The notes below the pieces were generated by a model. That model was not told where the DNA came from. It ran no database searches and was given only the letters and a program-made list of their open reading frames with translations. From the NCBI RefSeq assembly GCF_000429325.1, contig NZ_KE386886.1, positions 81,653-145,652 on the forward strand: a stretch of 64,000 nt of DNA, in the 5' to 3' direction. Below are positions 14,155 to 58,887 of this stretch, piece after piece. The translations under genes were made by a program, and so were the position numbers. This stretch comes from Fundidesulfovibrio putealis DSM 16056. Its GTDB lineage: Bacteria; Desulfobacterota; Desulfovibrionia; Desulfovibrionales; Desulfovibrionaceae. How positions within the stretch are numbered: position 1 is the stretch's first letter; each line of letters begins with the position of its first letter.

Positions 14155-14243
14155 GGCCGACCGGGAACACATGGGAATTTCTACCGAATCACATCGAACG
14201 GTTCTCCTGGCCGAGAACAGGGAACTGCGTAATCCGTCCGCAA

Positions 14244-14275: not shown

Positions 14276-14306
14276 CGGCGCGCCGGAGCCCCAAGGACGT
14301 ACCGCA

Positions 14307-16595: not shown

Positions 16596-16602
16596 CGGCG
16601 CG

Positions 16603-16634
16603 TTTTTGAAAAACATGAACATGTTTTTCAAAAA
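16603..16634. terminator. Perfect 15-bp palindromic hairpin after the second vgrG
   Basis: Positions 16603-16617 and 16620-16634 are perfect inverted repeats (arms TTTTTGAAAAACATG and CATGTTTTTCAAAAA) around a 2-nt AA centre. It is strikingly A/T-rich against this genome and lies 8 bp after the vgrG stop. With terminal T/A runs on both strands it could act as a bidirectional terminator; the next gene starts at 16711. Confidence 0.6.
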
Positions 16635-16710
16635 TAAAATAAATGGTTCTCTTGGATTGGGTTTGTACACACTATGAACGTATTTTAGAACGCCACACTG
16701 GGATCAGAGC

Positions 16711-20451: not shown

Positions 20452-20453
20452 CC

Positions 20454-21512: not shown

Positions 21513-21523
21513 GAGACGCAATC

Positions 21524-21925: not shown

Positions 21926-21975
21926 TCGTTCCGTCTGCGAATTGAGCGTCAACGACGCGAAGCGGAAAGCCGGGT

Positions 21976-21999
21976 CCAGGGGGAGGCTTCTCCCCCTGG
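21976..21999. terminator. Bidirectional terminator-like hairpin between convergent genes
   Basis: CCAGGGGGAG (21976-21985) and CTCCCCCTGG (21990-21999) form a perfect 10-bp stem with a GCTT loop, between the DUF4150 gene (plus) and the gene ending at 22029 (minus). The following CCGCCGGAGGC resembles the flank of an intergenic element I associate with Desulfovibrio genomes, from memory only. Confidence 0.55.
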
Positions 22000-22028
22000 C
22001 CGCCGGAGGCATCTTCTGCCTTTCTGAT

Positions 22029-23329: not shown

Positions 23330-23443
23330 CGATTGCGCTCCCGCACCTGGAAAGAGTGTTGTCCTAGCCGTGCCGGTTGGTCTATAGCATGCTTTGAAAC
23401 AAAGCAAAATCCTCTTCGCGAAACCATAAGCAAAGGCTGGGCC

Positions 23444-24226
23444 ATGACCAAGAGCATCTGGGTGACCATCCTGGAAAAGGACGAGGAAAAGGGACGCGCC
23501 CTGTTCGAGGCGATCCACCGCTACGGCCTGGGAGTGAACGGTCACTTCTGGGTGGACGACCTGGAAAAGATGCAGTGGGCGGGAGCGTTCTCCGAAATAT
23601 CCAAGCCCGAGACCGCCGTGTGGGTGGTGAAAGGGACGCCAGCCAGCTTTGCGGATGAGACCAAGCGCTACGGCCTCGCCATGTTGGCGGCCATGGTGCA
23701 GGCCATGAAGGGCCACGGCTTCCCCATCGTGCTGCTGCCTGATGGCGGCGCGCTGGACCCGGCCACGTTGCCAACGCCCTTGAAGGGCGCGATCATCGCC
23801 GCAGACGACGCGACCCTCATGCCCAAGCTGGTGGCCAAGGCCAACACCCCCGTGCCCAAGCTCGCCGTGGACTACCGCCTGGACATCCACCCGCTGCCGG
23901 GCCTGGGCCAGTGGTTCGAGATCGGCCCTGCCGAAGGTCACCAGTGGGCGGGCGCGATCTTCGGCGTGGCTGGAGAAGGATCAGAGGTGGACGCCCACGG
24001 TGCAGGCCCGCGAGGCACCGTGCCGGAAAAGGCTACGCTTGAGTACCCCATGAAGGGCGTGAAGTTCGCCATGGGCGAGAACGAGTTCACGGCCTGGGCG
24101 GTTAAGAACGCCCTGGACGACAAGAGTTCGTATTACGTGCGGGTGAAGGGCTACCCCAAGAGCGCGGCGTTCGGGTCGTTCCCCGAAGGCGACGAGGCCG
24201 AGATGTACGTGGTGAGCCTGAAATAG
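23444..24226 (+). CDS. Hypothetical cytoplasmic protein
   Basis: A 260-residue protein starting at ATG 23444 with AAAGG about 7 nt upstream, divergent from the NlpC/P60 gene (114-bp gap). It opens with MTKSIWVTILEKDEEKGRALF and has mixed alpha/beta character without signal peptide or membrane helices. The segment HPLPGLGQWFEIGP is followed by a Gly-rich stretch; no catalytic motif stands out and I do not recognise the family. A strong terminator follows. Its place between the exported pair and the sheath gene does not reveal its role. Confidence 0.65.
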   Translation: MTKSIWVTILEKDEEKGRALFEAIHRYGLGVNGHFWVDDLEKMQWAGAFSEISKPETAVWVVKGTPASFADETKRYGLAMLAAMVQAMKGHGFPIVLLPDGGALDPATLPTPLKGAIIAADDATLMPKLVAKANTPVPKLAVDYRLDIHPLPGLGQWFEIGPAEGHQWAGAIFGVAGEGSEVDAHGAGPRGTVPEKATLEYPMKGVKFAMGENEFTAWAVKNALDDKSSYYVRVKGYPKSAAFGSFPEGDEAEMYVVSLK

Positions 24227-24260
24227 CCCCGGCTCGGGCTTGCAAGACCGCCAACACCGT

Positions 24261-24302
24261 CCGGCTGCGCCTCCCGCAGGATGCGCAGCCGGTTTCGTTT
24301 TT
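24261..24302 (+). terminator. Rho-independent terminator
   Basis: CCGGCTGCGC (24261-24270) pairs perfectly with GCGCAGCCGG (24283-24292), with a 12-nt loop and the T-rich tail TTTCGTTTTT. It terminates the gene ending at 24226. Confidence 0.8.
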
Positions 24303-24448
24303 CCAGGGCGGCACACGCCAAGTTGGGCCGGGAGGAAACCGGAAGGGGAAATCTGGCGTCATAGACAGTATACGCTCCCGCTGTCCGGCGAAGAGGCCCA
24401 ATTCCCCGCGCCCGAGACGCGACAGTGGGAATGTCCATGGAGGCTGCA

Positions 24449-24703
24449 ATGTCCCTAGCCCGATCAAACCCCTTGCCCGCCCAGGCCGCTCCCTTGATAG
24501 AGCTGCGTTTCCTGGTCCCTCCGGCCATGGTGGAAACCGCCCGACAGGCCATGGCCCCGTACGCCAGAGCCAGCGTCCTGCCCGAAGGCTCGCCCGGCCA
24601 GCCCGCCACGGATCGCGAGCATCAACTGCCCGCCATGCCGGTCACGGGGCTGGCATTCACCGGGGTCACCCGCAAGGAACTGGAAGCCCTGCTTCGGGAG
24701 TGA
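24449..24703 (+). CDS. Small hypothetical protein
   Basis: An 84-residue reading frame whose ATG at 24449 follows GGAGG (24439-24443) at 5 nt, which is the main evidence that it is real. It has a conserved-looking beta strand IELRFLVPP, an Ala-rich helix and a C-terminal FTGVTRKELEALLRE helix. No family is recognised. It follows a terminator by about 150 bp and converges on the sheath gene. It may act with the neighbouring sheath fusion, but this is speculation. Confidence 0.45.
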   Translation: MSLARSNPLPAQAAPLIELRFLVPPAMVETARQAMAPYARASVLPEGSPGQPATDREHQLPAMPVTGLAFTGVTRKELEALLRE

Positions 24704-24855
24704 GCGCCGCTCCGCCTTCATGAACCGGGCAGGCTCCTGCGCCGACCATGCATTCTTCCCGGCCTGCGCAATCTCGCGACGCCAAGGCAGGCGCAAGCAC
24801 CCGGCTGCGCGCGAGCGGCCTGAACGCCCGGCCTGCGCCAAGCTGCACCGGTCCG

Positions 24856-26460
24856 TCACCAGCCGAAGCCGAAGGTCAGCCGTTCCCCGCCCATCACGGC
24901 GCGCGGCGGCGTGAAGGCGATGGTCACGGGGATGCGCCCGCCCTCCTTCTGACCAGGCTCCTGGCCAGCGTCCACGGTCAGGTCCGGAGGCGGAGTCTGG
25001 TCCGTCTGGTTGAAGAGATCCATCAGGGCCTGGCGCACCGCCCCGGCCGGGTCGTCCTGGGCCGAATCGGGAGCGTTCTCGCGCGCCTGAAGCAGGTGGC
25101 TCACCACGCGCCCGAAGAACAGCTGGAACACGAACGAGCCGCCGTCCAGCGCGGTCTGCCTGGGCAGCATGGCCATGTCGCGGCCGCGCGCACCCACCAC
25201 CGGGGAGAACCCGGCCTCCAGAAGCTCCGCGATGCGGTTCTCGTCGAAAAGCCCCTGCGTGGCAGCAGGACCTTCGCCGCCGTCGAACACGGCAAGCTCC
25301 TCCAGATATATCGTCCGGTAGTCCGCAAGGCGCGACGGCCAGCCGTACTGGATCACGCTCTTGGCGGCCAGCGTCCCGACTGCCCAGGCCGGGGAGAGCC
25401 ACAGGGGCGCGGACTCGGTGAAGGCCACCGGGCGGGCCGCATTGCCCGGACCATACGGCGCGCGCGACAGGAACGCGTTCAGCGTGAGCATGAGGCGCGA
25501 CGCGCCGGGATGCTCCGCCAGCTTGCGGAACTTGGCGTACTGGGCGTCGGCGAAGGCGGCCTTCAGGTAGCCGAGCCTTGAGAGCTCGCGCCAGGACCCT
25601 ACGCGGAAGAAATCAAGCGTCACCGAGGCCGCCACCGGCACCAGCAGGGTGTCCGCGAAGGCCAGCACCTGCCCCAGAAGCTCGATGCTGGCGGGCGAGT
25701 TGTCGAAGCCCTGGTCCACCAGGGCCAGATGCGGGGTATCCTGGATCAGCTGCGCGGCCAGCACGCCCAGGGCGTCGGCCAGGGTCTCCGGCGACACCGG
25801 GCACAAAAGCAGGCGCACCCGCCCGCCCTCCTTCACCCCGGCCTTGCGGGCCAGACACTCGGCCCCGCGCCAGGCCGCCTCGTAGGTGCGAAACTGCGGG
25901 TCGGCAAAGACTGCCGCCAGGGCACGCGCCAGAAGCGTCTCCGCCTGGGCCTGCCATCCGGCCAGATTGGCCCCCGTGGCCGACGCACCCCCGGCAGGCG
26001 AAGCCTGCGTGGCCACCATGGAAAGAATATCGTCGATGGCGTCGGCGTTGGCCCCGGAGCTGGCTGAGCCCTGCTCTGGCGCTGCCTGGGGCAGGGCCAG
26101 GTCAAGCTCCAGCCCGGGCCACTGGCGCCTTACGTCCGCCGCCACGGCCTGGGGCGCGGATCCTGCGCTGCGGGCCTGGGACAGGAACATCCGGCAGGCC
26201 TCCAGCTCGGCCAGATAGGGCGTGTTCTTCACCAGATTCTCCGGCCTGAACCCGGCAAGCGAGGTCACGGCCACGTCCAGGCCGCCCTGGGGACAGACGT
26301 CTCGCGGCAGTTCCACCCAGAAGCGCGGCCCGATATCGGCCAGGGCCTCGTCCAGAGTGTAGATGTCGGCCTCAGTCAGGCGCGGCTTGTACCCGCTGGC
26401 CGGGACCGGCCCGAAGGGGGCCAGGGCGAGTATGGTGTAGGGGCTGACCGATACGGACAT
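24856..26460 (-). CDS. Contractile sheath protein: apparent TssB-TssC fusion
   Basis: A 534-residue protein. Residues ~1-125 resemble TssB/VipA: ILALAPFGPVP, a LTEADIYTLDEALADIGPRF segment as in the TssB helix, and FRPENLVKNTPYLAELE. After a linker rich in Ala/Gly/Ser, residues ~150-534 resemble TssC/VipB: FADPQFRTYEAAWRGAECL, a GFDNSP patch, a long FRVGSWRELSRLGY region, APLWLSPAWAVGTL, and a C-terminal VTIAFTPPRAVMGG sheath-like strand. In standard T6SS the two subunits are separate genes (about 165 and 490 residues). The ATG has AAGGAG just upstream. No second sheath, tube (Hcp) or ClpV gene is next to it. It could be a divergent or orphan sheath. Confidence 0.7.
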   Translation of the reverse strand: MSVSVSPYTILALAPFGPVPASGYKPRLTEADIYTLDEALADIGPRFWVELPRDVCPQGGLDVAVTSLAGFRPENLVKNTPYLAELEACRMFLSQARSAGSAPQAVAADVRRQWPGLELDLALPQAAPEQGSASSGANADAIDDILSMVATQASPAGGASATGANLAGWQAQAETLLARALAAVFADPQFRTYEAAWRGAECLARKAGVKEGGRVRLLLCPVSPETLADALGVLAAQLIQDTPHLALVDQGFDNSPASIELLGQVLAFADTLLVPVAASVTLDFFRVGSWRELSRLGYLKAAFADAQYAKFRKLAEHPGASRLMLTLNAFLSRAPYGPGNAARPVAFTESAPLWLSPAWAVGTLAAKSVIQYGWPSRLADYRTIYLEELAVFDGGEGPAATQGLFDENRIAELLEAGFSPVVGARGRDMAMLPRQTALDGGSFVFQLFFGRVVSHLLQARENAPDSAQDDPAGAVRQALMDLFNQTDQTPPPDLTVDAGQEPGQKEGGRIPVTIAFTPPRAVMGGERLTFGFGW

Positions 26461-43562: not shown

Positions 43563-44225
43563 TTACTCGAAGTAGATGAATTCGTAATCGCCGCGATATC
43601 CGCTCTGGCCGAAGAACCATACCCAGTCCTCCGGGGCCATGAACGTCTCGCAGGTCAATGCCCAGCACTGGAGGTTGGTCAGCTCCGCCTCGTCGCGGAA
43701 ACTCTCCAGCACCACATACCCGTCCCGCGCGACCCGCGACAATTCGCCGAGCGCGCCGTGCGCCGTGCGCGGGGGGAGGTTGAAAAGCGTCATGACCGAC
43801 AGGGCCAGGTCGAACTCCCCGTCCCGGTACGGCAGCGGCTGGGCGGCGTCGTGCAGGCGCAGCGAGTCCCTGATCTCCGGCTTGGCGTTTTCCAGGGCGT
43901 AGGACGAGACGTCCAGACCGGCCAGGCGCGCCCCCGGCAGCAGGAGGCTCAATTCGTAGAGCAGGTAGCCCTTGCCGCACCCCACGTCGAGCACGCCGGA
44001 ACCGACGTGGAGCCCGTAGCGCTCCACCAGCGCCCTGGCCACGGGAGCCCAGCGGCCATCGTAGGAGTGGCCGCCGTACCCGAAGCGGCGGTCGCCGTCC
44101 CAGTAGTCCTGCCCGTAGCGCTTGGCCACGCGCATGCACTCGGGCTTTTCTGGAGACATGCGCTCCAGATAGTTGCGCCGGGTGCGGGTGTGCAGCGGGG
44201 TGACGATGGAGACCAGTTCGCCCAT
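43563..44225 (-). CDS. Class I SAM-dependent methyltransferase
   Basis: A 220-residue protein. Its ATG at 44225 shares one base with the stop of the transketolase subunit gene and has AGGAGG just upstream. The SAM-binding motif is GVLDVGCGKGYLLYEL at about 87-102, with GLDVSSYAL and LALSVMTLFNLPP. No zinc module is present. It might O- or N-methylate a pathway intermediate; no substrate clue is seen. Confidence 0.85.
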   Translation of the reverse strand: MGELVSIVTPLHTRTRRNYLERMSPEKPECMRVAKRYGQDYWDGDRRFGYGGHSYDGRWAPVARALVERYGLHVGSGVLDVGCGKGYLLYELSLLLPGARLAGLDVSSYALENAKPEIRDSLRLHDAAQPLPYRDGEFDLALSVMTLFNLPPRTAHGALGELSRVARDGYVVLESFRDEAELTNLQCWALTCETFMAPEDWVWFFGQSGYRGDYEFIYFE

Positions 44226-45166
44226 CAGGACCTCCTGGCGCGCGGGCCGGACAGTAGCGCCCGGGCCGCTTCCGCCGCGCGGGCGGGCGTAAGCCCGAAA
44301 TGCTCCAGCAGCTCGTCCTGGGAGCCGTAATGCCCGGACGGCTCGTCGGGAAGCCCCATGCGATGAAGCGCGGGGGGAATGAACTGCGCTTCGGCCAGGA
44401 GCTCCGCCACCGCCCCGCCCAGACCGCCCGAGAGAACGCCTTCCTCGATTGAGACCACGGCCCGCGCCCGGCTGGCCGCGTCGAGGATGGCCTCCCGGTC
44501 CAGGGGTTTCACCGTGTGGCAGTGCAGCACGGTTGCGCTCACGCCGCCGCCCGCCAGCATGTCCGCCGCGTCCAGGGCGATGCGCGCGGCGATCCCGGTG
44601 GTGACGAAGAGGACCTCGCCGCCCTCGCGCAGCATGCTGGCCTTGCCGTACTGCGCAGGAGCGGCCAGCGTGCTGACGACCCTGTCCCCCCCCTTGGCCA
44701 GGCGGATGTAGACTGGCCCGTCCTGGTCGAGTGTCTGGGGCATGAGGGCGCGCATCTGCTGCGCGTCGCACGGCGCCAGGATGCTGAGCCCCGGCAGGGA
44801 GCGCAGGCTGGACAGGTCCTCCACGGCCATGTGCGTGGGGCCGAGGGGGGAATAGACGAGCCCGCCCCCGCTGCCGATCAGGCGGACCTTGGCCTTGTGC
44901 AGGCAGAGGTCCAGGTAGATCTGCTCGAAGGCGCGCCGCGCCAGGAAGACCCCTATGGTGTTGAGGTAGACGACGCGCCCCTCCATGGCCAGCCCGGCGG
45001 CCATGCCCAGCAAGGCCTGCTCGCTTATGCCTTCCATCAGGAACCGCCCGGGCATCTCGGCGCGCATGGCGTCCAGGGACCCCGCGCCCAGGTCGGAGCC
45101 GATGAACATGACGCGCTCGTCGGCCTTGGCCAGCTCATGAACCATTTCCAGGCAGGCCTTACGCAT
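44225..45166 (-). CDS. Transketolase-like C-terminal subunit
   Basis: A 313-residue protein covering the pyrimidine-binding and C-terminal domains of transketolase/DXS-type enzymes: VMFIGSDLGAGSLDAM, the glutamate-bearing MEGISEQALLGMAAGLAM, and the terminal VVSIEEGVLSGGLGGAVAELL. It forms the second half of a split transketolase together with the gene at 45159. It contains an 8-G run on its coding strand near 44686-44693. Split transketolases in surface-glycan clusters are thought to transfer two-carbon units to unusual sugars, which fits the location. Confidence 0.85.
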   Translation of the reverse strand: MRKACLEMVHELAKADERVMFIGSDLGAGSLDAMRAEMPGRFLMEGISEQALLGMAAGLAMEGRVVYLNTIGVFLARRAFEQIYLDLCLHKAKVRLIGSGGGLVYSPLGPTHMAVEDLSSLRSLPGLSILAPCDAQQMRALMPQTLDQDGPVYIRLAKGGDRVVSTLAAPAQYGKASMLREGGEVLFVTTGIAARIALDAADMLAGGGVSATVLHCHTVKPLDREAILDAASRARAVVSIEEGVLSGGLGGAVAELLAEAQFIPPALHRMGLPDEPSGHYGSQDELLEHFGLTPARAAEAARALLSGPRARRS

Positions 45167-45986
45167 GACATTTCTCCATGGCCTCGGCGAGGGACGCGCA
45201 CTGCTGGTCGTCGAGCCTGCTCTTGTGGTGCCAGGCGGGGTTGTTCTCCGCCGGGGGGATGCCGCAGCCCTTCACAGTGCGGCAGATGAGTGCACTGGGG
45301 CGTCCGGCGTCGAACGGCAGGGCGGCGAAGGCGCTCTCCAGGGCGGGGACGTCGTGTCCGTCCACCTCGCGGACGCGGAACCCGAAGGCTTCCCACTTGG
45401 CGGCCAGCGGCTCCAGCGGGCAGACCTCCTCCACCGGGCCGTAGGACTGCTGGGAATTGGCGTCCACCACCACGCAGAGGTTGGAGAGCCCATGCTTGGC
45501 GGCGTGCAGCGCGGCCTCCCACACGGAGCCCTCCTGGCATTCGCCGTCCCCCATCACCACGAAAACCCGCTGGGAAAGACCGGCCAGCCTGGCGTGAAGC
45601 GCCATGCCCAGCCCAAGGGGCAGGCCGTGCCCCAGGCTGCCGGTGTAGGCCTCCACGCCTGGCACCTTGGGATCGGGGTGGCCTCCGAGAATCCCGTCGA
45701 AGCGGCAGAAACGCTCAAGCTCGCTCTTGGGGAAGAATCCTTTGTCCGCAAGAAGCACGAACAGCGCCAGGCAGCCGTGCCCCTTGGACAGGATCATCCT
45801 GTCGCGTCCCGCCCACCTGGGCAGGGCCGGGTCGTAACGCAGCACGCCGTCGTAGAGCACGCGCAGGATCTCCATCAGCGACAAAGACGGTCCCACGTGC
45901 CCCCTTCCCGCACAGGCCAGCGTGCCCAGCAGCACGCGACGCAGTTCCAGGGAGCGGGCATCCAGGCGGATTGGTTCGGCGCTCAC
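45159..45986 (-). CDS. Transketolase-like N-terminal subunit
   Basis: A 275-residue protein with the ThDP-binding domain: SKGHGCLALF and GSLGHGLPLGLGMA, then the metal motif GDGECQEGSVWEAA ending in DAN. The stop overlaps the following subunit by 8 bp, so the two should assemble one-to-one. A complete transketolase is usually one ~660-residue chain; the split form totals about 588. Its substrates are unknown, but it may add a two-carbon unit to an aldose or ketosugar in this glycan pathway. Confidence 0.85.
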   Translation of the reverse strand: MSAEPIRLDARSLELRRVLLGTLACAGRGHVGPSLSLMEILRVLYDGVLRYDPALPRWAGRDRMILSKGHGCLALFVLLADKGFFPKSELERFCRFDGILGGHPDPKVPGVEAYTGSLGHGLPLGLGMALHARLAGLSQRVFVVMGDGECQEGSVWEAALHAAKHGLSNLCVVVDANSQQSYGPVEEVCPLEPLAAKWEAFGFRVREVDGHDVPALESAFAALPFDAGRPSALICRTVKGCGIPPAENNPAWHHKSRLDDQQCASLAEAMEKCHA

Positions 45987-47005
45987 TCGAAGTCTCCTTC
46001 AGATATCCCCTGGCGGGCCAGGGCGAGCATGTTCCTGGCCGCGTCCAGGCGGACGGCGGCGATGCCGGGGTCCGCGTGATGGCCGGGCAGGAACGGATTG
46101 AGCATGATGGCGCACCAGGCAAGGGCAGCCACCGGGTATAGCGCGGCGAGCCTGCCCGCCAGGCCGGGATCGCCCTGCGCGTAGAGGCGCACGGTCCGCT
46201 TCACGAAATCCGTCCGCTGGGCGGGGCGCATGCGGTTTCCGGGGTGCAGCAGCACGTCGCACAGCATCTTGGCCGGGTCGTCGCGCCCGAAATATTCGAA
46301 GTCGAGAAAACAGACTGACCCGTCCGTCCTGACCAGGGCGTTATGAAATCCCAGGTCCGACGGGCTGAGCGTCCAGGGTCCGGCGACCGGCTCGCCCTGC
46401 GCGAACGCCTTCAGGGCGGGGACCAGCTCGGCGCGCACGAACCGGAGCATGTCTCCGTGGTCGCTCCGCTCGGCCTCGACCTCCAGCAGTGCCTGGAACC
46501 TCAGGGCTGTGCCGCGCGAGAGCGGCCCCCAGCCGGGGCAGGCGTCGGGACAGTCCTCCCAGGCCTCCCCGGTCTCCCGCAGGACCGAAGCGGACGCCGG
46601 AGGCAGGCAGGCCGCGCCCTCCAGACGCGAATAGCCCCGGAGCCTCTCCAGGAAGGCGAGCATCTCGTCCAGGTGCGCCTCTCCCGGCTGGTGCACGGGC
46701 TCACCGAGGACGTACTCATAGATGCCGACCTGGGCCTCGTCGTCCCTGGCCACCGGCCTGGGCACTGCCGTCTCGCCGCGCGCCTCCAGGAAGCCCAGGG
46801 CGGAAAACTCCACATCCAGGCGGCTTCGGCCTTCCGCAGTGGGCGCGGGATACACCTTGGCCGCCAGCCGTTCCCCTCCGGCAAGGGACAGCAGGAAGAC
46901 GCGGCTGTTGCCGCCGTTTCCCGCCGCTGCAACAGACGCGCCGGATAGCCCCAGGCGGGTAAGCGCCATCAGAAGGTTGGATTCTGCCCGGTCAGCCGAC
47001 ACCAT
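45983..47005 (-). CDS. Aminoglycoside-phosphotransferase-fold kinase, probable sugar kinase
   Basis: A 340-residue protein of the APH/choline kinase fold. The lysine region is RLAAKVYP. The catalytic loop reads SPSDLGFHNAL, where the usual HGD is PSD, keeping the catalytic Asp and the Asn. The DFG equivalent is FLDFEYFG. It overlaps the next gene downstream by 4 bp and the upstream HAD gene by 37 bp. It is probably a small-molecule kinase producing a phosphorylated sugar for the operon's transketolase or cytidylyltransferase. Confidence 0.7.
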   Translation of the reverse strand: MVSADRAESNLLMALTRLGLSGASVAAAGNGGNSRVFLLSLAGGERLAAKVYPAPTAEGRSRLDVEFSALGFLEARGETAVPRPVARDDEAQVGIYEYVLGEPVHQPGEAHLDEMLAFLERLRGYSRLEGAACLPPASASVLRETGEAWEDCPDACPGWGPLSRGTALRFQALLEVEAERSDHGDMLRFVRAELVPALKAFAQGEPVAGPWTLSPSDLGFHNALVRTDGSVCFLDFEYFGRDDPAKMLCDVLLHPGNRMRPAQRTDFVKRTVRLYAQGDPGLAGRLAALYPVAALAWCAIMLNPFLPGHHADPGIAAVRLDAARNMLALARQGISEGDFE

Positions 47006-47601
47006 ACGTCTCTCCAGGAGCCCGCCCGGCCAACCCCTGCCGGGGTGATGACCGTGCCGGTTTGGTCATACAAAATCCGGGCCACTCCTTCCGGAAAGCA
47101 TTCGTGACCCAACACTTCAGGAAGGTCGTCAAGAAAGTGGGTGGGGTTGAGGGCTGCAATGCGCGCGAGCTTCTCCTGCCGGGTCTGCTCGAAAAAAACG
47201 CTGCCTGGGTCCAGCGGACCGCCAGGATGCAGGAGGTTCTTCGCCTCCAGGCAGGTCATGGCCGCCTCCCGCAGGTCCACATGCCCGAACGGGTGGTGGG
47301 CGTGCCGGGTCTTGTGGCTCACCACCGCCAGCCGCGCCCCGGACGCCGCGAGCGCCTCCAGGCACTGCCTGGCCTGGGGAGCCACCTCGGCCTCCTGGAT
47401 ACGCTCGCCGTAGACCTCGGCCTGGAGTTCGCGCCAGAGGCTCTCGCCATCGGGAAGCGCCCGCACCACGCGGCGGACAGCGTTCTTGTCCGCCGCCACA
47501 TCCGGGGAGACGAGCCCCTTTTCCAGCGCCAGGGTCCGGAAAAGGCTGCCGTACAGGATGAGCGTGTTGTCCAGGTCCGAGGCCAGAAACAGAGGGAGCA
47601 T
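46969..47601 (-). CDS. HAD superfamily phosphatase-like protein
   Basis: A 210-residue protein. The catalytic DLDNTLI motif (residues 9-15; DxDxT) is followed by VVSHKT (motif II Ser/Thr position) and LDDLPEVL (motif IV acidic pair) near the end. It should hydrolyse a phosphate ester in the cytoplasm. It is first in the minus-strand operon, only 46 bp from the divergent NeuA gene, so a compact divergent promoter is expected there. Kinase next to phosphatase suggests a phospho-intermediate. Confidence 0.75.
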   Translation of the reverse strand: MLPLFLASDLDNTLILYGSLFRTLALEKGLVSPDVAADKNAVRRVVRALPDGESLWRELQAEVYGERIQEAEVAPQARQCLEALAASGARLAVVSHKTRHAHHPFGHVDLREAAMTCLEAKNLLHPGGPLDPGSVFFEQTRQEKLARIAALNPTHFLDDLPEVLGHECFPEGVARILYDQTGTVITPAGVGRAGSWRDVWCRLTGQNPTF

Positions 47602-47647: not shown

Positions 47648-48364
47648 ATGCAGACCGAACAAACATTTCGCGGCCGGGTCGTCGCAGTCGTCACCGCCAG
47701 GGGGGGCTCCAAGGGCGTGCCCGGGAAAAATCTGCGCCTCCTGCGGGGCAGGCCGCTCATAGACTGGACCGTGGCGGCGGCGCTCGGGAGCGCCTCCCTC
47801 GCCCGGACCATCGTCTCCACCGACTGTGAAGCCATCGCCGGCGCGGCGCGTGAAGCCGGGGCGGAGGTTCCCTTCATACGCCCGCCGCACCTGGCCACGG
47901 ACACGGCCACCCAGCTGGAGGTGATCCGCCATGCCCTGGGCTGGCTGGCCGGACATGGTGAGTGCCCCGAATACGTGCTCACGCTCCAACCCACCTCCCC
48001 GCTACGCACCTCGCAGGACATCGACGCCGCCGTAGGGCTGGCCCTGTCGCACCGGGCGCGGGCCGTGGTCGGAGTCGCCCCGGTCCAGCATCACCCAAGC
48101 CTCATGCGCACCCTCGGTCCAGACGGCGGCCTGAGCCCCTATCTGGCCGACCCGGCGCACAACTCCAGACGCCAGGACCACGAGGCGCTGTATGCGATCA
48201 ACGGAGCCATCTACGTGAACCGCTGCGCGGACCTGCTCGAGTCCGGCCAGTTCAGCCCGGCTGGCGCGCTGGCGTACGTGATGCCTGCGGAACGCTCTAT
48301 AGACATTGACGAAGCCTGGCAATTCCAGGTGGCCGAAGCACTTCTGACCGGAGTCGCGCCATGA
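47648..48364 (+). CDS. neuA: CMP-nonulosonate synthetase (NeuA/LegF-like)
   Basis: A 238-residue acylneuraminate cytidylyltransferase. The CTP loop is VVTARGGSKGVPGKNL, followed by IVSTDCEAIAGAARE, LQPTSPLRTSQDIDAAV and the terminal ERSIDIDEAWQF. It activates a nonulosonic acid (sialic or legionaminic type) with CTP. It is immediately followed, by ATGA overlaps, by the synthase and the 2-epimerase genes. With LegB and LegC homologues nearby, the product may be CMP-legionaminate; a sialic acid is equally possible from this gene alone. Confidence 0.9.
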   Translation: MQTEQTFRGRVVAVVTARGGSKGVPGKNLRLLRGRPLIDWTVAAALGSASLARTIVSTDCEAIAGAAREAGAEVPFIRPPHLATDTATQLEVIRHALGWLAGHGECPEYVLTLQPTSPLRTSQDIDAAVGLALSHRARAVVGVAPVQHHPSLMRTLGPDGGLSPYLADPAHNSRRQDHEALYAINGAIYVNRCADLLESGQFSPAGALAYVMPAERSIDIDEAWQFQVAEALLTGVAP

Positions 48365-49419
48365 CCGCCTCCACCGTGGACTTGCGCCGCGTCGGTGAAC
48401 CCGGCCAGCCCTGCCTGATCATCGCGGAGGCGGGCGTCAACCACAACGGCGACATGGCCCTGGCCCTGAAGCTGGTGGACGCCGCCCGCCAGGCAGGCGC
48501 GGACGCGGTCAAGTTCCAGACTTTCAAGGCCTCGCTTTTGGCCTCGCGCAGTGCCCCCAAGGCAGCCTACCAGCTGCGCTCCACGGACGCTGGCGAGTCC
48601 CAGCAGGCCATGCTCGAGCGCCTCCAACTCTCCCGCGCGGACCACCTGCCGCTCATGGAGCGCTGCCACGCAGCCGGGATGGCCTTCCTGTCCTCGCCCT
48701 TCGACCTGGAAAGCCTCGCCCTGCTCGATTCGCTGGGCCTACCCGCCCTCAAGATACCCTCCGGCGAGATCACTAATCCGGAATTTCTCAAAGCCGCCGC
48801 CCGGCTGGGCAAACCCATCATCCTCTCCACCGGCATGTCCTGGCTGGGGGAGGTAGAGGCTGCCGTCCGGGCCATCGAGGACGCAGGAAACCCGCCACTG
48901 GTGCTGCTGCATTGCGTCAGCGCCTACCCATCCGACCCCGCCGACTCCAACCTGCGGGCCATGGAGACCCTGGCCAGGGCTTTCGGCAAGCCGGTGGGCT
49001 GGTCGGACCACACCATGGGCATCGAGACGTCCCTGGCCGCTGTGGCGCTCGGAGCCTGCGTGGTGGAAAAGCATTTCACGCTGGACTGCTCCATGCCCGG
49101 CCCGGACCACAGGGCCTCGCTCGAACCCGACGGACTGGCCGCCCTGGTGCGGGGGGTGCGCATCGTGGAGTCCGCGTTGGGCGACGGCCTCAAACGCCCG
49201 GCCCGGTCCGAGGCCGACACGGCCCGCGTGGCCCGCAAAAGCCTTACCGCCGCCCGGGACATCCGCGCGGGAGAGGCGCTGTCCGGGGCCATGGTGCTGG
49301 TCAGGCGTCCAGGCGACGGCTTGTCGCCCTCCTCCCTGGAGCTTCTGCTTGGCCGCCGCGCCGCCCAGGACATCCCGGAGGGGAGCCTCCTCAGCCTGGA
49401 CCACTTCACCAAGCCATGA
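48361..49419 (+). CDS. neuB: Nonulosonate synthase (NeuB/LegI-like)
   Basis: A 352-residue NeuB-family enzyme that condenses a 2-acetamido hexose with phosphoenolpyruvate. It begins its core with IIAEAGVNHNGDMALAL and has DAVKFQTFKA, LKIPSGEITNPEFL and STGMSW of the TIM barrel. The C-terminal antifreeze-like SAF domain is RKSLTAARDIRAGEAL onward. ATGA overlaps with the flanking genes indicate stoichiometric production. Confidence 0.9.
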   Translation: MTASTVDLRRVGEPGQPCLIIAEAGVNHNGDMALALKLVDAARQAGADAVKFQTFKASLLASRSAPKAAYQLRSTDAGESQQAMLERLQLSRADHLPLMERCHAAGMAFLSSPFDLESLALLDSLGLPALKIPSGEITNPEFLKAAARLGKPIILSTGMSWLGEVEAAVRAIEDAGNPPLVLLHCVSAYPSDPADSNLRAMETLARAFGKPVGWSDHTMGIETSLAAVALGACVVEKHFTLDCSMPGPDHRASLEPDGLAALVRGVRIVESALGDGLKRPARSEADTARVARKSLTAARDIRAGEALSGAMVLVRRPGDGLSPSSLELLLGRRAAQDIPEGSLLSLDHFTKP

Positions 49420-50588
49420 GGGCCATCGGCGTCCTTACCGGAGCGCGGGCCGACTACTCCATCTACCGCCCCATCCTGGCCGCAATGGCTGCGGACCCAA
49501 GGCTTCGCCCCCTGCTTTTCGTCACCGGAATGCACCTCTCCCCCGAGCACGGCATGACCGTCTCCGAGATCGAGGCGGACGGGTACGCCATCGCCGAGAG
49601 GATCGAATGCCTGCAAGGCTCGGATTCGCCCGGCGCGGTCGCCCAGGCCATGGGGCGCGCCCTCTCGGGCATGGCCCGAGCGCTTGAGCGCCACCGGCCA
49701 GACCTGCTTCTTGTGCTGGGGGACCGCTTCGAGATGTTCGCCGGGGCCTCGGCGGCGGTGCCGCTGTCCATCCCCCTGGCCCACGTCCACGGCGGCGAGG
49801 TGACCTACGGGGCCATGGACGAGAGCTTCCGCCACGCTATCACCAAGCTCTCCCACCTGCATTTTGCCAGCACCGCACGCTACGCCGAGCGCATCCTCCA
49901 GATGGGCGAGGAGCCCTGGCGGATCAAGGCTTGCGGCGCGCCTGCGCTGGACGGCCTGCTGTCCATGGAGCTTCCCGGAGCGGACGAGCTCTCCGCCGAG
50001 ATCGGGTTCGACTGCCGCCGCCCGTTCCTGCTGGTCACATTTCATCCCGCCACCCGCGACCCTCAAGATGCGGCGTCCCAGGCCGATATGTTTTTCAGCG
50101 CCCTGGCCCAGGCCAGGCTCCCCGTGCTGGCGACCGCGCCCAACGCCGACCCCGGCGGACGCGCGGCCCGGCGCGCCCTGGAGAAATTCGCCACGGACAA
50201 CCCCGACGTCATGATCATCGACCACCTGGGGGCCAGGCGATACGCCGCCTGCATGCGCTGCGCCGCAGCCATGGCCGGGAACTCCTCCAGCGGGATTATC
50301 GAGGCGGCCTCGTTCGAGCTGCCCGTGGTAAACGTCGGCTCGCGCCAGGAGGGCAGGATCAGGGCAGCCAACGTGCTGGACGCGCCGCTTGAGCCCACGG
50401 CCATGAGCAGCGCCTTGTCGCGAGCCCTGGCCCCGGAGTTCCGCGCCAGCCTCAAAGGACTGGTAAATCCCTACGGCCAGGGGAAGGCCTCGGCGACCAT
50501 AGTGGAAACCCTGGCTACGGTCGATCTCGGTCCGGGGCTTCTGCGCAAACTGTTTCACGACCTGCACCAGGGAGACCACAACCAGTGA
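49416..50588 (+). CDS. neuC: Hydrolysing UDP/GDP-sugar 2-epimerase (NeuC/LegG-like)
   Basis: A 390-residue GT-B-fold epimerase. VLTGARADYSIYRPIL is the N-terminal signature of hydrolysing 2-epimerases, and later VHGGEVTYGAMDESFRH and GNSSSGIIEAASF bind the nucleotide sugar. It would release ManNAc (NeuC) or 6-deoxy-diacetamidomannose (LegG). It starts at ATG 49416, overlapping the neuB stop. The presence of LegB/LegC homologues favours the GDP-linked Leg substrate. Confidence 0.9.
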   Translation: MRAIGVLTGARADYSIYRPILAAMAADPRLRPLLFVTGMHLSPEHGMTVSEIEADGYAIAERIECLQGSDSPGAVAQAMGRALSGMARALERHRPDLLLVLGDRFEMFAGASAAVPLSIPLAHVHGGEVTYGAMDESFRHAITKLSHLHFASTARYAERILQMGEEPWRIKACGAPALDGLLSMELPGADELSAEIGFDCRRPFLLVTFHPATRDPQDAASQADMFFSALAQARLPVLATAPNADPGGRAARRALEKFATDNPDVMIIDHLGARRYAACMRCAAAMAGNSSSGIIEAASFELPVVNVGSRQEGRIRAANVLDAPLEPTAMSSALSRALAPEFRASLKGLVNPYGQGKASATIVETLATVDLGPGLLRKLFHDLHQGDHNQ

Positions 50589-51229
50589 AGCCGATCCTGC
50601 TGACCAAAACCACCCTCTGGTGCCGCGCGGCCTCGGAGTTTTTCCTGGCCCTGCGCCCCGACGCCATGGTGTTCGCGGGGGAAAACGGCGACCCCATGCC
50701 CGAGGCGTTGCGCGAGACGTCCATGATCGTCTCCTTCCTGAGCCCCTGGATCGTGCCAGCCAGTGCGCTGGAGGCCTGCGCCGGACCTGCCGTGAATTTC
50801 CACCCCGCACCGCCGGAGTATCCCGGCATCGGCTGCTACAACTTCGCCCTGTACGACGCCGCCCCGCTCTACGGAGCCACCTGCCACCACATGTCCCCTG
50901 TGCCCGACACGGGAAGGCTCGTGGCGGTGCGCCGCTTCCCCATGTACCCGACGGACACCGTGAGCCTGCTGAAAGAGCGCACCATGGTGCACCTTCTGGC
51001 CCTGTTCTACGAAATCGCCGCCCTGCTGGCCCAGGGCGCGCCCCTGCCCGAGTGCGCCGAGACCTGGACGCGCAAGCCCTACCTGCGCCGCGAGTTGGAC
51101 GAACTGGGCCGCGTCACCCCGGACATGTATCCGGACGAGATCAGACGCCGGGTCGCGGCCATGCGCTTCCCCGGCGCGCCGGGAGCCTTCCTGGAGCTGG
51201 CCGGGGTGCGCTTCGAGGCCGCCGGTTGA
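50585..51229 (+). CDS. Formyltransferase-fold protein (sugar N-formyltransferase?)
   Basis: A 214-residue protein with the formyltransferase triad: Asn71 and His73 in AVNFHPAPPEYPG and Asp108 in PDTGRLV. This is the conserved N-H-D set of GART/Fmt-type enzymes that use 10-formyl-THF. It lacks the tRNA-binding C-terminal domain of methionyl-tRNA formyltransferase (normal total about 310). The GTG start overlaps the neuC stop, so it belongs to the nonulosonate operon and may formylate an amino group of the sugar. The acceptor amine is inferred, not shown. Confidence 0.7.
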   Translation: MKPILLTKTTLWCRAASEFFLALRPDAMVFAGENGDPMPEALRETSMIVSFLSPWIVPASALEACAGPAVNFHPAPPEYPGIGCYNFALYDAAPLYGATCHHMSPVPDTGRLVAVRRFPMYPTDTVSLLKERTMVHLLALFYEIAALLAQGAPLPECAETWTRKPYLRRELDELGRVTPDMYPDEIRRRVAAMRFPGAPGAFLELAGVRFEAAG

Positions 51230-51277: not shown

Positions 51278-52474
51278 ATGTCGACCCATCGCCTCATTCA
51301 CATGTTTCATCCCGGCAACGCACTCGGAGCCATGTGCTCTGTGGAGAGGCTGGCCCGACAGGCGGGCGCGACCCCTGGCCCGGCTCCCACCGTGCTGCTC
51401 CATTTTCCCTTCGTGCCCACGTCCCAGCTGGAAATCATGGCGGACATCATCGCCGCCCTCACCGCGTCCAAGGGCTGGGCGCGGCCGAGGATTCTCCAGG
51501 CAGACGAGATGAACGCCATCCTCGGCGCGCAGGGAGCGGAGTCCCCGCAGGCGGCCGAGCGCCTGCGCGACTGGCTGGGCGGCCCCCCCCCCCAGGAGAT
51601 CCACTACGTGCACACCGTGGTGGCCAAGGCGGCGGAACTCTCCATGAGGGCCTACCCGGAAGCCAGGAGAGTCTCCTTCGGAGACGCCCTGGGCATCCTG
51701 CACAACGATGGCTACCACCTGGCCCAGTACGCCGGGCTCTCCCTGGCCGAGCGCGAGGCCGCCGGACGCGCCCACGCGCGCCTCACCGCGACCGGAGCGC
51801 TTCCCCAGGCCACAACCGTGGCCTGCCTGCTCCCCTCGGACCAGAAAGGCGACTTCGTGCCGGGCAAGGAACTTCTGGTCGTTCCCAGGGACATGGCCCG
51901 CGCCATCATCGACGGCAGTGCGGAAGAACTGGCGGAACTCCAAGCGTACTCCCAGGCCTTGCTGGAGCGCCTGCCCGCTCCCAGGTTTCTCTTCCTGACG
52001 GAAAACATCGTGGAGGCCAGCTACTCCACCTTCGAGAACGCAGTGGCCCTTCAGGAGGAGATGATCAGGCGGCACGCGCCTCCCGGTTCGTCCATCATCA
52101 TCAAGGCCCATCCCCTGAGCACCCTGGATGTGCATGGAGAGCTGGCTCGGCGTCTGGCCGGGGACTATTCGGCCGAGGTGCTGGACGAGGTGGCCGGGCG
52201 GTACCCGGTGGAGTTCATGAAAAGCCTGGTGGAGGCCTGCCAGCCCCTGTGCTGGTCCTACGGCACGCTCAGCCTGTCCTATCTGTACGGAAAGACGCCG
52301 CTGCACGTCATCGACGACGGCCTGATCCGGCGCTACATGGACCCGGCCCGCTGGGAATCCATGCGCAACTCCATGCGCCTGATCCTCGAGCCCCTGGACA
52401 ACCTCCGCACGTGGGACGGCGCGAGCCCGCTGTGGTCGGGAACGTATGAGACGCCGGAGACCGGGCAGCAATAG
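51278..52474 (+). CDS. Polysialyltransferase-like glycosyltransferase, probably phase variable
   Basis: A 398-residue GT-B protein that resembles the alpha-2,8-polysialyltransferase family. The HP motif is IIKAHPLS near residue 275, and a Ser/Thr-rich WSYGTLSLSYLYG motif near 327-339 resembles the S-motif of bacterial sialyltransferases. It would use the CMP-sugar produced by the adjacent neuABC genes. Codons 102-106 contain 11 consecutive C residues, the longest such run in the window, so expression may switch by slippage. It starts 48 bp after the formyltransferase gene. Confidence 0.7.
   Translation: MSTHRLIHMFHPGNALGAMCSVERLARQAGATPGPAPTVLLHFPFVPTSQLEIMADIIAALTASKGWARPRILQADEMNAILGAQGAESPQAAERLRDWLGGPPPQEIHYVHTVVAKAAELSMRAYPEARRVSFGDALGILHNDGYHLAQYAGLSLAEREAAGRAHARLTATGALPQATTVACLLPSDQKGDFVPGKELLVVPRDMARAIIDGSAEELAELQAYSQALLERLPAPRFLFLTENIVEASYSTFENAVALQEEMIRRHAPPGSSIIIKAHPLSTLDVHGELARRLAGDYSAEVLDEVAGRYPVEFMKSLVEACQPLCWSYGTLSLSYLYGKTPLHVIDDGLIRRYMDPARWESMRNSMRLILEPLDNLRTWDGASPLWSGTYETPETGQQ
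51583..51593 (+). repeat. 11-bp poly-C tract within the polysialyltransferase-like gene
   Basis: Eleven consecutive C residues are read as part of GGC CCC CCC CCC CAG, giving Gly-Pro-Pro-Pro-Gln. A gain of one C would leave an open but wrong frame to about 52449; a loss of one C would terminate at or before 51998. Either would remove the HP and S motifs from the protein. Confidence 0.95.
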
Positions 52475-52565: not shown

Positions 52566-53582
52566 CTACACGGCGTAGATTGAGGTCTTGATGAAGTCCG
52601 GGTGGGCGGCGATGAATTCTGCCACCCTGGCAAGCCCCTGCTCCAGGCTCACCGTGGGCCGCCAGTTCAGCTTTTCCCCGGCCAGGGTGTTGTCGCATAC
52701 CAGGGTGAGCACCTCGCTGGCCTGGGGGCGCACGCGCGACGGGTCCAGGCGCACCGGCTTGCCGCAACCCAGCAGACGCAGGACCGCTTCCACGATGTCC
52801 CCTATGCTGGACACGCTGCCGCCGCCCACGTTGATGATCTCTCCCAGGCAGTCGGCGGTGGCCGCCGCCAGAAAACCCGCCACGGTATCCTCCACGAAGG
52901 TCATGTCGCGGATGGGGTCCAGGGAGCCCAGGCGGATTTCCGGTTCGAAAAGTGCCTGGCTGATGATGGTCGGGATGACCGCCCTGGCCGACTGGCGGGG
53001 GCCGTAGGCGTTGAAGGGGCGCACGGTGACCACGGGAAGCCCGAACGAGCGGTGGTAGCTTTCCGCGAGCTTGTCCGCCGCGATCTTGCTGGCCGAATAC
53101 GGGGATTGCCCCTGCAGGGGGTGCGCTTCGTTTATCGGCGTGTACAGCGCGGTTCCGTACACCTCGGAGGTGGAGGTGTGGACCACCCGCTCCACCCCGT
53201 GGACGCGCGCCGCCTCGAAGATGTTGCAGCTGCCTTCGATGTTGGTCCTGATGTAGCTCTTGGGGGCGGCGTAGGAGTACGGTATGCCTATCAAGGCCGC
53301 CAGATGGAAGACGATCTCCTTGCCCTTCACCTGGCGGTGCACGAAATCCTGGTCCTCCACATTGCCGGCAACCACCGTGAGCCCCGCCCTGGCGTCTTTC
53401 GGGAGGAATTCCAGGTTTCCCCACCCGCTCTGGGAGCTGTAGCGGATCATGGCCGTCACTTCCGCCCCGGAGGCGATCAGCGCCTGGCACAGATGGCTTC
53501 CGATGAAGCCACCGGCCCCGGTCAGCAGGATTTTCTTGCCGGAAAGACTGGAGGTCGATGCGTGATCGTTCATTGGTTTCAT
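52566..53582 (-). CDS. legB: NAD-dependent 4,6-dehydratase (LegB-like)
   Basis: A 338-residue extended SDR. The Rossmann motif is KILLTGAGGFIGSHLC, the active site is YSASKIAADKL (YxxxK), and HTSTSEVYGTALYTPI and RPFNAYGPRQ are typical of the LegB/EDH_00030 dehydratase family. It would convert GDP-GlcNAc (or UDP-GlcNAc) to the 4-keto-6-deoxy sugar, the substrate of LegC. The start is taken at ATG 53582 rather than TTG 53591. No good ribosome-binding site is seen. It is divergent from the PtmE/LegC genes, sharing a 300-bp intergenic region. Confidence 0.8.
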   Translation of the reverse strand: MKPMNDHASTSSLSGKKILLTGAGGFIGSHLCQALIASGAEVTAMIRYSSQSGWGNLEFLPKDARAGLTVVAGNVEDQDFVHRQVKGKEIVFHLAALIGIPYSYAAPKSYIRTNIEGSCNIFEAARVHGVERVVHTSTSEVYGTALYTPINEAHPLQGQSPYSASKIAADKLAESYHRSFGLPVVTVRPFNAYGPRQSARAVIPTIISQALFEPEIRLGSLDPIRDMTFVEDTVAGFLAAATADCLGEIINVGGGSVSSIGDIVEAVLRLLGCGKPVRLDPSRVRPQASEVLTLVCDNTLAGEKLNWRPTVSLEQGLARVAEFIAAHPDFIKTSIYAV

Positions 53583-53836
53583 CCGGAGCAAGTGTTTGTG
53601 GGAATCAATCGGAGGAGTTCACTTCCCCTGATATATTTACCATATGCTTCGTCGGGTGTCGAACCACGAGGACGGCCTGGATCAGGACTAACTCCCGGCG
53701 ACGGAAATCTGACGGGGCACGCCCCGGCCAGCGCCCCTGGCGCGCAGTCGCGCCGTCTGCAACCGGGATAGGGTACCCTCGCAATCATGGAGTATTTATT
53801 GCATTAATTCCGGCGCAGTCGGCGCGCTGCCCTCGA

Positions 53837-53866: not shown

Positions 53867-53914
53867 TAGGACACTAAAATGTTTAGTCATCCGCCAACTT
53901 CCGCAAAGGACAGA

Positions 53915-54946
53915 ATGGATCTCGCCCGTTTCCTCCTGCCGGAAAACAGCTCCCTCCTGGACGCCATGAAGGCCATCGACGGCAACACCCAGGAGGTGGT
54001 TTTCGCCCACGACGCGCAGGGCCGGGTAAGCGGCCTCATCACCGACGGCGACATCCGCCGGGGACTCATCCGCGGGCTGGGCCTTGACGCCCCCGTCCAG
54101 GAAGTGATGACCAGGGACTTCCACAAGGTCGCGCCCGGAACCGGCCGGGCGTTGGTCCTCGACCTCATGCGGGCCATCCAGATTCGCCACGTCCCGGTGA
54201 TCGGCGCGGACGGCAGCCTGTGCGGAATCCACTTCCTGCGCGACCTCCTGGGGGTCCAGGAGCGCAGCAACGTCGCCGTCATCATGGCCGGAGGCAAGGG
54301 CGTGCGCCTGCGACCGATCACCCGGAACCTCCCCAAGCCGCTGGTCCAGGTCGCCGGACGCCCCATCATCGAAAGGCTGGTGCTCCATCTGGTAAGCCAC
54401 GGCATCAGGAAGATTTATCTTTCGATCAACTATCTGGGCTCGATGATTCAGGACCATTTCCAGAATGGAAACCGCTTCGGGTGCTCCATCGAGTACCTCG
54501 TGGAGGAGCGCGAACTCGGCACCGGCGGCGCTCTCGCGCTGCTGCCAGAGCGGCCTGCGCACCCTCTCCTGGTACTCAACGGCGACCTGCTCACCCAGGC
54601 CGACATCGGACGCCTGCTGGACTTTCACCAGGACCAGCAGGTGAAGGCCACCCTGGCCGTCACCGGCTACCGGCACGTGGTGCCCTACGGCGTGGCCGAC
54701 GTGAAAAACGGCAGGCTCGAGCGGCTGGTGGAGAAGCCCAGCCTGGACTTCCAGGTGAACTCGGGGATCTACGTGCTGGACCCCTCGCTCATCGACATGA
54801 TCGAACCCGGCGTGGATTACCCCATGACCAGGCTGATCGACGCGTGCCTGGAAAAGTCGCTTGGCGTGGGCGTGTTCCCGCTCGAGGACGAATGGCGCGA
54901 CATCGGGAGCTTCAACGAACTTTTCGCCGCCAGGACGGGTGAGTGA
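53915..54946 (+). CDS. ptmE: CBS-domain sugar-1-phosphate nucleotidyltransferase (PtmE/LegX-like)
   Basis: A 343-residue protein. Two CBS motifs (residues ~1-115; VVFAHDAQGRVSGLITDGDI and HVPVIGADGSLCGIHFL) precede a nucleotidyltransferase domain starting at AVIMAGGKGVRLRPITRNLPK. LVLNGDLL and the late VEKP are further active-site motifs. This architecture is that of PtmE, the glucosamine-1-phosphate guanylyltransferase of the legionaminic acid route. The start at ATG 53915 follows AAAGGA; an upstream ATG at 53879 has none. The CBS pair may sense adenylates or the product. Confidence 0.8.
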   Translation: MDLARFLLPENSSLLDAMKAIDGNTQEVVFAHDAQGRVSGLITDGDIRRGLIRGLGLDAPVQEVMTRDFHKVAPGTGRALVLDLMRAIQIRHVPVIGADGSLCGIHFLRDLLGVQERSNVAVIMAGGKGVRLRPITRNLPKPLVQVAGRPIIERLVLHLVSHGIRKIYLSINYLGSMIQDHFQNGNRFGCSIEYLVEERELGTGGALALLPERPAHPLLVLNGDLLTQADIGRLLDFHQDQQVKATLAVTGYRHVVPYGVADVKNGRLERLVEKPSLDFQVNSGIYVLDPSLIDMIEPGVDYPMTRLIDACLEKSLGVGVFPLEDEWRDIGSFNELFAARTGE

Positions 54947-56106
54947 GCATGACCATCGACAGCATCCTGGAGCGGATCGAGCGAGTGCTCGCCGGGTTCC
55001 CGAGGCCGGTGGCCCTGCACGAACCCCTCCTGGGAGAGGCGGAGCGGGAGGCCGTGGCCCGATGCGTGGAATCCGGCTGGGTCTCCTACCTCGGCCCGGA
55101 TGTGGAGCGCCTGGAGCGGCGGCTGGAGGAAATACACGGGGGCGGCCACGCCGTGGCCACGGCCAGCGGGACGGCTGCCCTGCACCTGGCCCTGGTCCTG
55201 GTCGGCGTCCAGCCGGGCGACGAAGTCCTCATGCCACCCCTCACCTTCGCGGCCACGGCGAACGCCGCCGTGTACGCAGGAGCGACGCCCCATTTCGTGG
55301 ACATCGAGCCCCGCTCGCTCGGCGCATGCCCCGAACGGCTGGAGCGCCATCTGGCCCGGACCGTCGAGACCGTCTCCGGACAGGCGCGCAACAAGGCCAC
55401 GGGCAGGCGCGTTGCGGCCCTGGTGGCCGTGCACGTGTTCGGCCATCCGGCCATGACCAAGGAATTGGAAGATGTGTGCCGACGCTTCGGTATCATCCTG
55501 GTTGAGGACGCGGCGGAGTCCCTGGGCAGTCTTCAGGACGGCGTCCCGGTGGGGCGGCGCGGCGCGGCCTCGGCCCTGAGCTTCAACGGCAACAAGATCG
55601 TCACGGCGGGGGGCGGCGGCGCGCTCCTGTGCCCCGACGCAAAATCCGCCGCCCTGGCGCGCCACCTGGCCACCACGGCCAAGGCCCCGCACCCCTGGAA
55701 GCTCGGGCATGACCGCCTGGGCTTCAACTACCGCATGCCCAACCTCAACGCGTCCCTGGCCCTGGCCCAGCTCGGCCGCCTGGACGAATTCCTGGCCCGC
55801 AAGCGGACCCTGGCCTCCCGCTACGCCGAGGCCTTCGCCGGTCTCGAAGGAGCGCGCGTCCTGGCCGAACCGCCCGGCTCGCGCAGCAACTACTGGCTGA
55901 ACACGATCCTCCTGGAGGACAGCCTGCTTCCGGTACGGGACGAGCTTTTCGGGAAGATCCGCGAGGCCGGGATACTGATCCGCCCCGCCTGGGAGCTCGT
56001 AAGCTCCCTGCCCCACTTCGCCCATTGCCCCCGCTCCGGCCTGGAGGTCAGCCAGGACATGCAGCCGCGAGTGGTCAACCTGCCGAGCAGCGCGGCACTG
56101 GCCTGA
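54943..56106 (+). CDS. legC: PLP-dependent sugar aminotransferase (LegC-like)
   Basis: A 387-residue DegT/DnrJ/EryC1-type aminotransferase. The PLP lysine is in SFNGNKIVT (about Lys218), with VEDAAESLGS and GGGALLC flanking it. It matches the LegC group, which makes the 4-amino-6-deoxy sugar from the LegB product. The GTG start at 54943 overlaps the ptmE stop; an ATG at 54949 is a short alternative. It completes a dehydratase-aminotransferase pair split across divergent operons. Confidence 0.85.
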   Translation: MSMTIDSILERIERVLAGFPRPVALHEPLLGEAEREAVARCVESGWVSYLGPDVERLERRLEEIHGGGHAVATASGTAALHLALVLVGVQPGDEVLMPPLTFAATANAAVYAGATPHFVDIEPRSLGACPERLERHLARTVETVSGQARNKATGRRVAALVAVHVFGHPAMTKELEDVCRRFGIILVEDAAESLGSLQDGVPVGRRGAASALSFNGNKIVTAGGGGALLCPDAKSAALARHLATTAKAPHPWKLGHDRLGFNYRMPNLNASLALAQLGRLDEFLARKRTLASRYAEAFAGLEGARVLAEPPGSRSNYWLNTILLEDSLLPVRDELFGKIREAGILIRPAWELVSSLPHFAHCPRSGLEVSQDMQPRVVNLPSSAALA

Positions 56107-58245: not shown

Positions 58246-58887
58246 TTATCCGCCGTGGCCGTCGGCGGGCGCTGCGGGCCGCGACCGTTCCAGCGGCTTG
58301 AGGGGCTTGGCCGGATTGCCTCCGCAGGCCGTCCAGGCGGGCATGTCCTTGGTCACGACGCTGCCCGGCGCGATGATCGCGCCCTCGCCGATGGTCACGC
58401 CCTTGAGGATGATGGCGTTGAACCCGATCCAGACCTTGGAGCCGATGACCACGGGCTTCATGGTGACCTTGGACCAGTCCTGCGACTGGCCGATGGCCCG
58501 GCCGCCGGAGGCGATGTAGTCCTCGAAGCACAGGCGGACGTCGTCCTTGCGCTCCTCCCAGTAGAGCGAGTGGTGGTCGGAATCGATGATATTGATGTTC
58601 CAGGACATCAGGACGTCGTCGCCGACGATGATTTCCCTGGCGCAGTCGAAGTTGACGTTCCCCAACTGGCAGCGCGCGCCAACCGTTATCCTGGCCCTGG
58701 GCTGAATGAAATTGAAGACCGAATAGATGTGCGACTGTTCGCCGATGGTGATATTGACGAAGTCCGGCTCTGGTTCCTCAAGATAATTGATGTTCGAATG
58801 CGACGTGACGAGGCTGGTATCATGCACGCGGGCGTGCTGCTTGTACTTTCGCCAATTGTTGTGGTCAGGCGCTCCAAAAACGAACAT
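58246..58887 (-). CDS. Left-handed beta-helix (hexapeptide) acyltransferase
   Basis: A 213-residue transferase of the LbH/WbbJ-like type. Residues ~60-180 hold hexapeptide turns (ARITVGARCQLGNVNFD, IVGDDVLMSWNINI) with the active His in IDSDHHSLY, then VVIGSKVWIGFNAIILKGVTIGEGAIIAPGS with more repeats. The C-terminus is WTACGGNPAKPLKPL. It could O- or N-acetylate the sugar made by the nearby Leg genes, a step for which no classical PglD-like LegH is seen. The N-terminus lacks the Rossmann domain of PglD. Confidence 0.8.
   Translation of the reverse strand: MFVFGAPDHNNWRKYKQHARVHDTSLVTSHSNINYLEEPEPDFVNITIGEQSHIYSVFNFIQPRARITVGARCQLGNVNFDCAREIIVGDDVLMSWNINIIDSDHHSLYWEERKDDVRLCFEDYIASGGRAIGQSQDWSKVTMKPVVIGSKVWIGFNAIILKGVTIGEGAIIAPGSVVTKDMPAWTACGGNPAKPLKPLERSRPAAPADGHGG

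Follow-up and report, generated by a model that had tools for sequence, protein, structure and literature searches.

A run of 11 C in the gene of a putative legionaminate-type glycosyltransferase: slippery proline codons, probably of ordinary origin

We consider it probable, though well short of certain, that the gene at 51278-52474 of the window (the whole 64,000-nt stretch of DNA that was analysed) encodes a legionaminate-type transferase and carries a slippery run of proline codons of ordinary origin, not an evolved on/off switch. Its neighbours, together with a remote family similarity, suggest an enzyme that would take a nonulosonate of the legionaminic acid type from its CMP-activated form and add it to a glycan of the cell surface. 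The genome is rich in C, and the run itself most likely reflects the usual choice of codons for proline.

The legionaminic acid-type gene cluster

The genes on both sides of the transferase gene were assigned as follows.

47648-48364, forward strand: CMP-nonulosonate synthetase-like cytidylyltransferase of LegF/NeuA/PseF type (PF02348; TIGR03584 at 130.8 bits, below the cut-off of 205.7)
48361-49419, forward strand: NeuB/LegI-type nonulosonate synthase (TIGR03569 at 434 bits, above the cut-off)
49416-50588, forward strand: NeuC/LegG-type hydrolysing 2-epimerase (TIGR03568 at 418.8 bits, above the cut-off; start taken from the ATGA overlap)
50585-51229, forward strand: formyltransferase-like gene, for which sugar N-formylation is predicted (PF00551, E 3e-9)
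52566-53591, reverse strand: LegB-like NAD-dependent 4,6-dehydratase (TIGR04180 at 397 bits, below the cut-off of 475)
53879-54946, forward strand: PtmE-like protein with CBS and (sugar-1-phosphate) nucleotidyltransferase domains (PF00571 and PF00483; homologues in three other Leg loci)
54943-56106, forward strand: LegC aminotransferase (TIGR04181 at 443.7 bits, above the cut-off)
58246-58887, reverse strand: hexapeptide acetyltransferase, WbbJ/WcaF-like (44% identical to the gene adjoining LegC in a relative's locus)

The genes starting at 47648, 48361, 49416 and 50585 share one orientation and overlap one another at ATGA- or GTGA-type junctions, and the transferase gene begins 48 bases further on. 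From this spacing, the transferase gene is probably the last gene of a five-gene operon. A scan for sigma-70 promoters gave no match.

LegB, LegC and PtmE belong to the legionaminic acid pathway. The LegB-like and LegC genes stand beside the NeuB- and NeuC-type genes, as expected of a legionaminic acid cluster. Given the LegB-like, LegC and PtmE-like neighbours, a derivative of CMP-legionaminic acid is the most likely activated sugar, rather than CMP-Neu5Ac. The initial annotation had described the neighbours as neuABC-like and had proposed sialylation of a capsule. The first description holds for the NeuB, NeuC and cytidylyltransferase types, while the LegB-, LegC- and PtmE-like genes point to legionaminic acid. 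The second finds no support, as the cluster is of the legionaminic type and the genes scanned included none recognised as serving capsule export.

The cluster resembles the CMP-legionaminic acid pathway of Campylobacter jejuni and other bacteria in its grouping of LegB-, LegC-, PtmE-, NeuC/LegG-, NeuB/LegI- and LegF-type genes. It differs from that pathway in that the N-acetyltransferase LegH was not found in the cluster, where only the formyltransferase-like gene and the hexapeptide gene at 58246 were seen. It is possible that the formyltransferase-like gene (50585-51229) makes an N-formyl legionaminic acid derivative.

Two members of the genus of the window also have Leg loci, with LegB, LegC, NeuB, NeuC and PtmE-like genes. 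One of these loci (L064) was annotated further, and it contains a PglD-type acetyltransferase as well as a Maf-domain (PF01973) protein (L064:11138-12982) immediately after its PtmE-like gene, a place at which the cluster in the window has no such protein. In the window, the formyltransferase-like gene and the gene of the HP-type transferase take the place of that acetyltransferase and Maf-domain protein.

Two other groups of genes were observed in the window. One, at 44225-47601 and divergent from the Leg operon, consists of a two-subunit transketolase-like pair with APH-like and HAD-like genes after it. The other, at 11923-26460, belongs to a type VI secretion cluster and contains two VgrG-like proteins, a DUF2169-pentapeptide protein, a second pentapeptide protein and a VipB-like gene at 24856.

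The putative transferase and its sugar donor

The transferase gene and its motifs, with the definition of the D/E-D/E-G motif taken from PMC2169525, are as follows.

51278-52474, forward strand: putative nonulosonate (legionaminate-type) glycosyltransferase, polysialyltransferase-like, 398 aa
51680-51694, forward strand: GDALG, a degenerate form of the D/E-D/E-G motif (the relative has GDSFG)
52103-52114, forward strand: HP motif KAHP, residues 276-279, exact (KPHP in the relative)
52250-52282, forward strand: Ser-containing motif CWSYGTLSLSY

A search of 348 genomes of the order gave the protein in only one besides this. It was found in no further genome among 395 sampled from the phylum, nor in the genome_contigs, viral_contigs and plasmids collections scanned. 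The sole relative found (L018:9159-10337) belongs to another genus of the same family and is 32% identical. Its gene is also grouped with LegB, LegC, PtmE-like and cytidylyltransferase genes. The gene at 39207 of the window was considered as a paralogue of 51278-52474 and was rejected.

The HP motif takes part in donor binding in the polysialyltransferase of N. meningitidis (PMC2169525). The product of 51278-52474 had no Pfam or NCBIfam match, and the relative matched PF07388 (A-2_8-polyST) over the HP region with E 8e-5 and 22.7-23.5 bits, at the cut-off of 23.3. The protein is like CAZy family GT38 and PF07388 in its exact HP motif, its similar length and the match of its relative. It is unlike them in that the query itself has no significant match, the D/E-D/E-G motif is degenerate and the donor is probably CMP-legionaminate. 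The strict form of this motif was not found at the expected place, where GDALG and GDSFG stand, and strict GT38 membership accordingly does not apply. The product had been called polysialyltransferase-like at the outset. This description stands as far as the HP motif and the relative at the PF07388 cut-off are concerned; it does not extend to the D/E-D/E-G motif or to a family match of the query.

Structure prediction gave two models (pLDDT 50 and 47), both from a two-sequence alignment. Both models, which are of low confidence, matched GT-B proteins, with the polysialyltransferase structures 5wcn/5wc6 (probability 0.89-1.00) among the best matches; UDP-GlcNAc 2-epimerases rank ahead of polysialyltransferase among the fold matches. 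Prediction from the two sequences was poor whichever of them was taken as the query, and the matches are hints at most. A sequence search against solved structures gave noise alone.

The order of the fold matches, the missing strict D/E-D/E-G motif and the lack of a direct match of the query to Pfam or NCBIfam are what one would expect if the protein were a glycosyltransferase with another donor, next to the Leg genes by coincidence and not specific for a CMP-nonulosonate. We regard this as improbable, because the single relative found matches PF07388 and is itself encoded in a Leg locus, and the gene in the window stands in the same direction behind the cytidylyltransferase, NeuB and NeuC genes in a probable operon. 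The product of 51278-52474 is probably a GT-B, HP-motif transferase of polysialyltransferase type with a legionaminate donor.

The C11 tract and the predicted effect of slippage

The tract lies within this gene.

51583-51593, forward strand: 11-C homopolymer in codons 102-106, encoding Gly-Pro-Pro-Pro-Gln

The sequence agrees with the first description of the tract in both place and codons. It covers GGC CCC CCC CCC CAG, from the third base of codon 102 through codons 103-105 to the first base of codon 106. The tract was also correctly described as the longest homopolymer in the window, the runner-up being 8 C at 44686-44693.

Single-C changes alter the product of 51278-52474. With one C fewer, the frame closes after 122 aa at a stop codon that ends at 51647, and not by 51998 as had been predicted. 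Gain of one C, as predicted, leads to a wrong frame that stays open until 52449. The tract is N-terminal to every conserved motif of the protein, and a frameshift in it would remove all of them.

Homopolymers are prone to error, and the tract length could in principle be a fault of sequencing or assembly, with a shorter or longer true allele. Long poly-C/G stretches resembling artefacts do stand at contig ends in the assemblies of the genus relatives. We consider such a fault very improbable here: the tract is in the interior of a contig of 306 kb, and with 11 C a frame of 398 codons of coding composition stays open. The base composition by codon position of ORF 51278-52474 (0.67/0.48/0.86) is of the coding type, unlike that of the two long ORFs that overlap it.

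In N. meningitidis, homopolymers of at least 8 nt are mostly variable (PMC5084427), and mismatch repair has no effect on switching at 10-13 nt in Neisseria (PMC4085013). Loss of mismatch repair was rejected as a source of instability in the present genome, as MutS and MutL are both present, and it matters little at 11 nt (PMC4085013). For the same reason, the presence of MutS and MutL is compatible with slippage. Since 11 nt is within the variable range of Neisseria and mismatch repair is no bar, length variants probably arise. These −1 and +1 variants without the catalytic motifs would probably appear as mutations of a slippery sequence. A slipped allele should lose the transfer step alone, because the tract precedes the motifs and the gene is the last of the probable operon.

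Abundance of C tracts and the case for phase variation

Long C/G tracts are near chance level in abundance and show no clear excess in the genome. The G+C content of the window is 66%, and the 4.7-Mb genome contains seven C/G runs of at least 10, five of them of at least 11. To obtain expected numbers, Markov models (order 2-4) were fitted to the window; extending them to the genome is an approximation. By this approximation, 5 runs of at least 11 were observed genome-wide against 2.0-3.4 expected, and 7 runs of at least 10 against 8-13 expected. For the 64-kb window alone the Markov expectation was 0.03-0.05. When the genes of the window were resampled with synonymous codons, 24% of trials contained one or more runs of at least 11. 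Local codon usage favours such runs, with CCC making up 48% of proline codons and GGC 59% of glycine codons. Given the peptide Gly-Pro-Pro-Pro-Gln and this usage, the probability of 11 C was 0.065.

Four of the seven genome runs of at least 10 are outside recognisable genes. A thioredoxin-reductase/AhpF-like gene has a second 11-C run close to its start (G000:C5:176646-176656), which could serve as an internal comparison for slippage at 51583-51593, and a rhodanese/ferritin-like gene has a run of 10 C; these names were read from the sequence without a family search. The idea of a genome with many poly-C switches was rejected, as the other coding runs of at least 10 are only in these thioredoxin-reductase-like and rhodanese-like genes. 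In relatives, runs of at least 11 were found in housekeeping genes, in proline or glycine linkers and in intergenic DNA. The near-chance frequency of the runs and their presence in other types of gene indicate that the tract alone is no evidence for selection. In assemblies of the genus relatives, long poly-C/G stretches at contig ends (for example G001:C3:1-70) are probably instrument artefacts and inflate the counts of C tracts.

The species is represented by one genome, and comparison of tract length among related genomes came down to the one relative, of another genus and 32% identical. It does not have the tract: no more than 5 consecutive C occur in its aligned DNA. The Leg loci of the two genus members have no C or G run of 11, and L064 has one run of 8 G. 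This absence of conservation is weak evidence, because one relative alone is comparable.

The initial annotation had read the tract as a phase-variable switch, and the gene has much in common with siaD of N. meningitidis serogroup B: an in-frame poly-C run in a polysialyltransferase-like gene, neighbours for nonulosonate synthesis and truncation on frameshift. It differs from siaD in its legionaminic-type neighbours in place of those for CMP-Neu5Ac, in having no identified capsule locus and in that tracts are not clearly enriched. In a contingency locus of this kind, slipped-strand mispairing would switch the transferase on (C11) and off (C10, C12), and the nonulosonate would be present on or missing from the surface glycan. 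The length and base of the tract would suit such a switch, 11 nt being enough in Neisseria, as would its position before the conserved motifs, all of which the −1 product of 122 aa lacks. A surface glycan function is of the right type for a contingency locus, switching of the last gene of an operon would leave the pathway genes undisturbed, and siaD is a precedent (Hammerschmidt 1996, as cited in PMC5084427). We nevertheless think this explanation unlikely, if worth keeping in mind, and phase variation is not supported by the present data. In meningococcal genomes repeats are significantly above expectation (PMC5084427), whereas long tracts here show no clear genome excess; the relative and the related Leg loci are without the tract; no length variant turned up in the genomes searched; and a tract of equal length lies in a redox gene. 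More doubtful still is the fuller form of the idea, a contingency locus for an N-formylated legionaminic acid derivative in which a polysialyltransferase-like enzyme replaces a Maf transferase, in a bacterium with no known record of phase variation.

A legionaminate-type transferase gene with a slippery run of ordinary origin is the reading that we prefer. Were the tract to work as a switch, poly-C phase variation of nonulosonates on the cell surface would no longer be confined to the host-adapted bacteria in which it is known. As of 2020, no bacterial enzyme had been reported for the transfer of legionaminic acid to cell surfaces (PMC7439481), and since then C. jejuni Maf4 has been put forward as a legionaminic acid transferase (PMC9298399). 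The transferase in the window is of the HP type, in contrast to the Maf-domain protein in the Leg locus L064 of its genus relative. Even without switching, the gene is a candidate for a CMP-legionaminate transferase of the polysialyltransferase type.
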